A stretch of DNA of 32,247 bases from Patescibacteria group bacterium (GTDB lineage Bacteria > Patescibacteriota > Minisyncoccia > Phycocordibacterales > UBA1006): the NCBI GenBank assembly GCA_020428645.1, contig JAGQMN010000009.1, positions 1-32,247 of the forward strand, written 5' to 3'. Each line of letters starts with the position of its first letter. Within the stretch, counting starts at the first letter, position 1. The notes beneath the pieces are model-generated. The model did no database searches. It saw only the letters and a program-made list of their open reading frames with translations, and had not been told where the DNA came from. Positions 1 to 10,247 of the stretch are shown in pieces. Both the position numbers and the translations under genes were made by a program.

Positions 1-302
1 AGGTCAGCAACGAGACGATTCTGTTCAATTTCTGCAATAATGTCACCCTTCTTCACCTCGTCACCTACGTGAACATTGACGGCTTTTATACGTCCAGAAC
101 TTGCAAATCCGAGATCAACACGGTCACGGGCATCAATCGTTCCTGCCAAGAGTAACTCGTCCGATACATCAGTACGCGTAACGGTGTACGTTGAGTATGG
201 TTCAGCGTTGTTTTTTCGAATAACAATAAGTAGTAGTATCAATAGAATGATACCTCCAATGATCCAGTAGCGTTTTTTAATTTTTTTGAGTGTAGCTAAC
301 AT
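1..302 (-). CDS. Efflux periplasmic adaptor (MFP/HlyD family), N-terminal part
   Basis: Partial gene: the start is at 302 and the reading frame runs off the left edge after 100 codons. A basic N-terminus (MLATLKKIKKRYW) is followed by one membrane anchor (about residues 13-28), then a biotinyl/lipoyl-like barrel with the typical phrases GTIDARDRVDLGF, SGRIKAVNVHVGDEVKKGD and IIAEIEQNRL. This is the pattern of membrane fusion proteins that link an inner-membrane ABC or RND pump to an export path; in CPR bacteria such adaptors usually sit beside MacB-like ABC transporters (family knowledge; the partner lies outside the window). A TATAAT box ends 11 nt before the start codon and there is no Shine-Dalgarno site, so a very short leader is likely. 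Confidence 0.85.
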   Translation of the reverse strand, partial: MLATLKKIKKRYWIIGGIILLILLLIVIRKNNAEPYSTYTVTRTDVSDELLLAGTIDARDRVDLGFASSGRIKAVNVHVGDEVKKGDIIAEIEQNRLVAD

Positions 303-493
303 AGTATTGACTGATTATACCGTAAATTTGAGTATTGTGTATAAATCAATGTATGGACTTGCTATTTTAAAATATCAATATATGCTGAAGATCAGTTTAC
401 TTTTTCTATCAATCATTGGAGCGCCTGGTGCATTATTAATGGGGACATTATTATGTGAACCAGGCTGACTCCAGTGTGTGGAAGATTTCTTTG
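303..493. other. Intergenic stretch without a supported gene
   Basis: AT-rich spacer between the MFP gene and the proposed RNA at 494-664. It contains a 28-codon plus-strand frame (382-468) with a hydrophobic product but no convincing promoter or start signal. A 7-bp inverted repeat (423-429 with 459-465) encloses two copies of CATTATTA. I see no other element. Confidence 0.4.
314..319 (-). promoter_or_regulatory. -10 box of the MFP gene
   Basis: Minus-strand TATAAT, 11 nt from the ATG at 302. No good -35 box is visible. The expected leader is only about 4-5 nt. Confidence 0.55.
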
Positions 494-664
494 AAAAAAA
501 TATGCACTAGTCTGCTTCAGTATTAACCTTGTGAGGTTGGTTTTAATTCCTGAATCCTTGCTAGTGCAACTCGTTGTTGTTTGGTTGTTTAGTTAGCCGT
601 TTGGCTTGATACCGGTGAAGTATTAGGGTTGCTGCTATACGCTTCACCGGTTACAACCAAAACC
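494..664 (-). ncRNA. Candidate structured RNA of unknown class
   Basis: Two folded domains are visible. Domain 1 is a three-way junction: 580-588 pairs with 653-661 (9 bp), enclosing a 4-bp hairpin (595-598/603-606) and a perfect 10-bp hairpin (611-620/642-651, 21-nt loop). Domain 2 is a long hairpin with stems 503-510/561-568 (8 bp), 515-519/550-554, 521-525/543-547 and an AACCT/AGGTT tip (524-528/533-537, alternative to part of the preceding stem). Read on the minus strand, domain 2 is followed by TA and seven U, as in an intrinsic terminator, and a TACAAT box (671-676) lies just upstream of domain 1, giving an RNA of about 170 nt. It does not match RNase P, tmRNA, SRP or any riboswitch I know. 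It could instead be a leader acting on the MFP gene about 190 nt downstream. Confidence 0.45.
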
Positions 665-670
665 ATAATC

Positions 671-676
671 ATTGTA
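671..676 (-). promoter_or_regulatory. Possible -10 box of the candidate RNA
   Basis: Minus-strand TACAAT, the same hexamer used before the exonuclease and rmuC genes. It places the transcript start just before the closing stem of the RNA. No good -35 box is seen. An 8-base complement between 677-684 and 635-642 links the promoter region with the loop of the 10-bp hairpin. Confidence 0.35.
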
Positions 677-718
677 GCGTATAGTTTACTTTTGGTTAGA
701 TTTAATTGCAAACGCTGC

Positions 719-747
719 AAAAAAGCCTGTTTCGTTGACAGGCTTTT
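719..747 (-). terminator. Intrinsic terminator after the SIMPL gene
   Basis: Perfect 10-bp stem (721-730 with 738-747), 7-nt loop, with six U (719-724) on the minus strand. It lies directly after the stop codon of the SIMPL gene. Confidence 0.85.
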
Positions 748-750
748 GTT

Positions 751-1425
751 TTAGTTCAATAGGTATCGCAAGGTTGATACCAGACGCACCTTTTTCATTT
801 CGGGTGATGCTGGGTCTTTTTCGCTGATGTCAAAGACTCCTTGATTTGCCCGCGCAAGAGCACCAATCCCCGCTCCTGAATCTTTGGCAAATTGTTCTGC
901 CGAGGTACGCGCATTCTCGATAGCCTCTGACAACATTTCAGGTTTATAGGTGTTGATGTCGTCGATTTCGTAGCTCACGTAGCTGTCAGACACCACAATG
1001 CCGTCCTCGATTAATGATAGAGTTTCCTGAGAGGTTGTTTTTACAAGGTCAATTTTATCCGTATACACCGACATTGATACACGGGCATTGTAACGGTACT
1101 GTGAACCGCTGTAGGTGTCCTGATAGGTGCTCGCAGGTGAAGTATTGATTTCACCGGCTTCGAATCCTGCCTTTTTCAGGAAATTGGTTACTCCGTTCAC
1201 CTGGGTTGCAATCTGACGATAGAGGTCGGTACTATCGTTTGATTTCACATCAAAATTCATTGTCCAGATAGCCCGATCTGCCTTGATAATACGTTCAGAC
1301 AACCCCTTTACCTCGACGTATTTCCCCTGGTTCGAGAATCCTCGTGCCGAAGACATAAAAATCAATGCCAATAATAACAGCACTCCTCCTGCAACCCCAA
1401 TAATAATTTTAATATTTTTGTTCAT
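751..1425 (-). CDS. SIMPL domain-containing protein (DUF541)
   Basis: 224 aa. Residues 8-26 form a membrane anchor or uncleaved signal. The rest is a SIMPL (DUF541/YggE-like) domain: KYVEVKGLSERIIKADRAIW near the start, the central TDLYRQIATQVNGVTNFLKKAGF and INTSPAS, and the late YEIDDINTYKPEMLSEAIENA and RTSAEQFAKDSG phrases. Family members are periplasmic or surface proteins with poorly defined roles, linked to oxidative-stress tolerance in E. coli (YggE) and signalling in animals. The length is typical. It is a single gene with its own terminator and a -10 box 11 nt before the start; no partner is evident. Confidence 0.88.
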   Translation of the reverse strand: MNKNIKIIIGVAGGVLLLLALIFMSSARGFSNQGKYVEVKGLSERIIKADRAIWTMNFDVKSNDSTDLYRQIATQVNGVTNFLKKAGFEAGEINTSPASTYQDTYSGSQYRYNARVSMSVYTDKIDLVKTTSQETLSLIEDGIVVSDSYVSYEIDDINTYKPEMLSEAIENARTSAEQFAKDSGAGIGALARANQGVFDISEKDPASPEMKKVRLVSTLRYLLN

Positions 1426-10047: not shown

Positions 10048-10057
10048 ACAAATTTTT

Positions 10058-10128
10058 CAGTAAATGCGAGGCTCGAACTCGCGACCTTCCACAAAAGCAG
10101 ACGCTCTAGCCAACTGAGCTAATTCACC
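10058..10128 (-). pseudogene. tRNA-Lys-like gene with a shortened anticodon loop
   Basis: 71 nt. D arm (GCTC/GAGC) and T arm (GCGAG/CTCGC around TTCGAGC) are perfect, and the acceptor stem pairs GGTGAAT with ATTTACT using two G-U pairs, one at the 1-72 position. The anticodon arm is odd: TCTGC pairs with GTGGA (two G-U), leaving a loop of only four T. The standard 7-base loop would need three more bases. The body resembles tRNA-Lys(TTT). Either a degenerate tRNA, an unusual functional one, or a local sequencing error; a normal anticodon cannot be read. Confidence 0.65.
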
Positions 10129-10247
10129 AAATAAATAGAAATTTTCTGTTAAAGAATTATGAGGCTATGAACCTAATGATTCTAGGAGAGTACAGCCGAG
10201 TGACTTTACGGACACTGTATTATTCCTAAAAAATTTCTAAGATAAAT

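Follow-up and report, generated by a model that had tools for sequence, protein, structure and literature searches.

The window, by which we mean the whole stretch of 32,247 nucleotides analysed here, is the complete contig C39 of a 720-kb genome (G000). It contains an intergenic gap of exactly 448 bp (303-750), the length given in an earlier sequence-only reading of this DNA, and both genes that flank the gap code for membrane proteins and lie on the minus strand. Upstream is the gene for a SIMPL/DUF541 protein, which is related to proteins of Ca. Nomurabacteria/Paceibacterota, identifying the host as a Patescibacterium, and has orthologues within the genus and family that are 63-78% identical; downstream is the gene for an efflux adaptor. 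The features of the locus, in the direction of the minus strand, are as follows.

751-1425, minus strand: SIMPL/DUF541 protein gene, 224 aa, upstream (Pfam PF04402, E 1.8e-22)
715-747, minus strand: intrinsic terminator of the SIMPL gene, AAAAGCCTGTCAACGAAACAGGCTTTTTT (hairpin 721-747, minus-strand T run, z -3.5)
671-676, minus strand: candidate weak -10 box TACAAT for an RNA that may start at about 662-664 (suggested by the sequence)
580-661, minus strand: 5' domain, a 9-bp closing stem (661-653/580-588) that encloses two hairpins (pair probabilities mostly 0.9-1.0)
651-642/611-620, minus strand: perfect 10-bp hairpin in the 5' domain (predicted fold)
606-603/595-598, minus strand: small 4-bp hairpin in the 5' domain (predicted fold)
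503-568, minus strand: 66-nt hairpin, outer 8-bp stem TGCACTAG/CTAGTGCA (568-561/503-510) with a 50-nt loop (fold and conservation)
554-550/516-520, minus strand: inner 5-bp stem within the 66-nt hairpin (predicted fold)
494-500, minus strand: T7 tract, putative terminator tail right after the 66-nt hairpin, CATATTTTTTTCAAA (sequence)
425-485, minus strand: further downstream hairpin, GGAG..GCCTGGT..ACCAGGC..CTCC (z -1.3, not clearly above chance)
314-343, minus strand: predicted promoter of the efflux adaptor gene, TATACA-N18-TATAAT, 11 nt before the ATG (scan and comparison)
3-302, minus strand: membrane fusion protein (MFP)/HlyD-type efflux adaptor gene, downstream, truncated at the contig end (Pfam PF13533, E 3.1e-10)

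The minus strand of 494-664 folds with -50.3 kcal/mol, compared with a mean of -30.9 kcal/mol for dinucleotide shuffles, none of which equalled it (0 of 200; z -5.2), which bears out the earlier remark that the structure goes far beyond that of an AT-rich spacer. The 5' domain taken alone (580-664) reaches the same z of -5.2, the 66-nt hairpin alone has a z of -2.9, and the whole gap (303-750) has a z of -5.05. The 9-bp closing stem around two hairpins, one of them a perfect 10-mer, is predicted where the sequence-only reading had placed it, and the seven U with which the structure was said to end are the T7 tract at 494-500. Of the 8-, 5- and 5-bp stems described for the 66-nt hairpin the first two were recovered, with pair probabilities mostly of 0.9-1.0, whereas the apical 5-bp stem is weak (pair probabilities of 0.5-0.8). 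All stem pairs are of the Watson-Crick type, allowing both strands to fold. In fact, the plus strand of 494-664 folds nearly equally (z -4.1), so that folding does not pick the strand, and the opposite strand of the 66-nt hairpin is of equal or greater stability. Inverted repeats abound in the gap, which has 10 8-mer repeats against 0.6 expected. An 8-base complement between 677-684 and 635-642, also pointed out earlier, does exist, but it is not significant alone since one or more perfect 8-mer inverted repeats within 60 nt turn up in 36% of shuffled gaps, and it has no comparative support.

We then compared the locus with its relatives. By nucleotide similarity the element has no match in 19 genomes of the same family or in phage records. 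The gene order SIMPL-gap-MFP adaptor, with gaps of about 400-610 bp, is kept in three species of the same genus (G010, G011 and G017), and a counterpart of the 66-nt hairpin lies within the gap of G010 and of G011; it is absent from the gap of G017, in which the gene order is retained. No counterpart of the 5' domain (580-661) was detected in the relatives. The hairpins of G000, G010 and G011 share an 8-bp stem of the form TGNNNNAG/CTNNNNCA and a loop whose length is exactly 50 nt in each, the outer stems of the two sister species being TGCGTCAG/CTGACGCA and TGTGTCAG/CTGACACA. Among the three species both partners have changed in each of the four middle pairs, no pair of the eight is broken, and the remaining four are invariant. 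Such compensatory changes in the stems were what the sequence-only reading had proposed to look for, and they are present in the outer stem of this hairpin in two sister species. The pattern was reached by 3 of 500 shuffles and by no slid version. A stem of this form with a loop in this range occurred in 1-2 of 3,000 shuffles of each gap, a figure that is somewhat flattering because the form was set after the three gaps had been viewed. Despite its constant length, the loop is only 26-28% identical among the three hairpins. CATATTTTTTTCAAA follows right after the hairpin in two of the three species (G000 and G011); the hairpin of G010 has no directly adjoining T run, and a similar end, ATATTTTTTT, lies further downstream in its gap. 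As far as three sequences of one genus can tell, the covariation of the outer stem is genuine but shallow.

A covariance model of the hairpin (R1), run on the family and on 397 genomes of the order, gave good scores only to the three sequences from which it was built. In most of the next-best matches in the order genomes, at about 30 bits and an E value of 0.004 per genome, the stem is broken or the match overlaps a reading frame; such matches are expected by chance. On these searches, the 66-nt hairpin is genus-restricted, with no credible copy elsewhere in the family or order. Each of the three genomes holds one copy of it, and the longest stretch that the element shares with the rest of its own genome is 16 nt, leaving no second copy. 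A multi-copy family in the own genome was rejected after a scan for long-loop hairpins with a T run, in which the inspected matches were coding or gene-end sequences and unrelated. One DNA pattern derived from the 10-bp hairpin had no match in viral contigs. A 27-codon open reading frame over the first hairpin (MIMVLVVTGEAYSSNPNTSPVSSQTAN) was discarded, as it has no counterpart in the other gaps and no ribosome-binding site. The long-loop hairpins also raised the idea of an integron attC site, for which no RYYYAAC/GTTRRRY boxes were seen by eye. The literature searched offered nothing specific to the element.

The SIMPL-MFP gaps of G010 (L177) and G017 (L179) share a two-hairpin unit that is absent from the window. 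Its first part is a stem of AAACCCCCTCG../AAACCTCTTATTCTTT.., and its second hairpin has a conserved AGG-T/GTG-CCT internal loop, the loop motif ACACTTAAAAAAT and an inner stem that covaries (CCCT/AGGG versus CTTTTT/AAAAAG). No further copies of the ACACTTAAAAAAT motif with that structure were found.

The earlier reading could assign the element to no known class, and in agreement with this a scan of the gap with Rfam gave no family at threshold and only chance-level permissive matches. In the stretches of the own genome that were examined, Rfam at curated thresholds recognises only tRNAs and tmRNA. It misses even an RNase P RNA, which lies at L122:6578-6870 on the plus strand as judged by its motifs (GAGGAAAGTCCGG..ACAGAA) and scores below the gathering score, and the silence of Rfam is therefore weak evidence in this lineage. 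Of the housekeeping alternatives, tmRNA sits elsewhere in the genome, and so, by sequence motif, does an RNase P RNA. The size of the element is within the range of SRP RNA and 6S RNA. SRP RNA was nevertheless rejected, as the apical motif CAGG-GNAA-AGCAG is absent from the three 66-nt hairpins and the gap has no Rfam SRP match, and so was 6S RNA, with no RF00013 match and no long rod with a central bubble. The small and large bacterial Rfam models of SRP RNA gave no credible match for any of 20 genomes from the family, although control genomes were positive, so that SRP RNA in these 20 genomes is either very divergent or absent; the 6S RNA model likewise found nothing credible in the 20 genomes. 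Elsewhere in the window, at 10057-10129 on the minus strand, ARAGORN predicts, beside tRNA-Ile, a tRNA whose two-base anticodon is unassigned; Rfam does not list this tRNA.

The structured region lies between the SIMPL terminator upstream and the MFP promoter downstream and is thus insulated on both sides. The -10 box that had been noticed before the first stem, TACAAT at 671-676, is there, but it is weak and is not listed by a consensus promoter scan; no strong promoter is visible for the RNA. The MFP gene has a separate predicted promoter, which follows the T7 tract by about 170 nt and whose layout is kept as TATACA-N18-TATAAT in G000 and G010 and as GATACA-N18-TATAAT in G011, 7-11 nt before the ATG. 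Genome-wide in G000, ATG stands 6-7 nt after TATAAT more often than expected (24 and 31 occurrences versus about 10), which suggests that leaderless mRNAs are widespread there; before the MFP gene in the window the spacing is 11 nt.

This arrangement bears directly on the proposal that the element is a cis-acting leader of the MFP efflux gene, a riboswitch or attenuator with the T7 hairpin as its terminator arm. In G000, G010 and G011 the hairpin does lie upstream of MFP on the same strand, and its end is terminator-like. However, in these three species a conserved predicted promoter stands between the element and the MFP start, and a riboswitch is unlikely because this promoter is downstream of both the structure and the T7 terminator; there is also neither a conserved aptamer-like sequence nor an Rfam riboswitch match. 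We thus consider a leader highly improbable, and the switch acting on MFP that the earlier reading had entertained is not upheld.

The hairpin could instead do no more than punctuate transcription, as a second terminator in tandem or as a structured 3' end of the SIMPL transcript, maintained because it matters that transcription stops ahead of MFP, and with no product of its own. Such a role would fit the terminator form of the hairpin with T7, the many strong hairpins that fill the syntenic gaps, and the better conservation of stem and T tract than of the loop (26-28% identity). But a strong terminator is already there for the SIMPL gene, termination does not require the loop to be fixed at 50 nt, the hairpin of G010 comes without a T run, and the 5' domain would be left unexplained; altogether we regard punctuation alone as unlikely. 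It is also conceivable that the palindromes act as DNA, whether as protein-binding sites, in recombination or as a mobile hairpin. The Watson-Crick-only stems that fold on both strands, the excess of inverted repeats and the varying hairpin content among species all point that way, whereas the lack of a second copy in the own genome, the single copy in each of three genomes and the T7 tract, which keeps to one side in G000 and G011, argue against it, and we give this explanation only a slim chance.

We favour, with a probability of about 0.58, a genus-restricted gene for a small non-coding RNA of about 170 nt, read on the minus strand from about 664 to about 494 and ended by an intrinsic terminator. 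Such a gene would sit between the SIMPL terminator and the MFP promoter, and the long-loop hairpin with the T7 tract would form the 3' end of the RNA and act as its terminator. The fold, the conserved gene order, the compensatory changes, the constant loop length, the T7 tract and the insulation on both sides speak for this reading. Against it count the shallowness of covariation among three sequences with four invariant pairs, the G010 hairpin with no T run adjoining it, the lack of a visible strong promoter, the stability of the opposite strand of the hairpin, the 5' domain with no counterpart in relatives, and the absence of the hairpin from G017. An intrinsic terminator at the 3' end, as looked for in a small RNA gene, is present as an 8-bp stem with T7 in G000 and G011, the 50-nt loop being atypical. 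This loop, with its recurring AACC...TCA-like stretch, might be presented to a partner, which could be a protein or an mRNA that pairs with it. We infer that the element is transcribed as an independent RNA from the minus strand, with the loop as its working part. The element itself is real, probably functional and ordinary in kind, and is a candidate for a new RNA family. A bolder proposal takes the SIMPL-MFP spacer of this genus as a modular RNA locus that evolves fast. Its long-loop hairpins, namely the 66-nt type, a type with a CCGG stem and the two-hairpin unit of G010 and G017, would be maintained through structure and loop length and not through sequence, and would make up a new RNA class peculiar to these reduced bacteria, which presumably depend on a host; we find this very doubtful. 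To our knowledge, the Patescibacteria have so far yielded few non-coding RNAs, and intergenic small RNAs there are little described. With its compensatory changes and its constant place in the gene order, the hairpin offers a concrete, testable candidate; its importance is modest, the family being narrow.

Among known systems, the riboswitch and attenuator leaders of efflux genes, for example the guanidine riboswitches, are likewise structured RNAs that precede a transporter-type gene on its own strand. The element differs from them in the MFP promoter that comes in between, in having no aptamer-like conserved sequence and in having no Rfam match. From the intergenic small RNA genes of bacteria that end in an intrinsic terminator it is set apart by the unusually long loop (50 nt) of its terminator hairpin and by the lack of an Rfam family. 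It is like these genes in its isolated position, with a terminator before it and the next promoter after it, in being structured with a hairpin and T7 at its end, and in its fast evolution and occurrence in few species.
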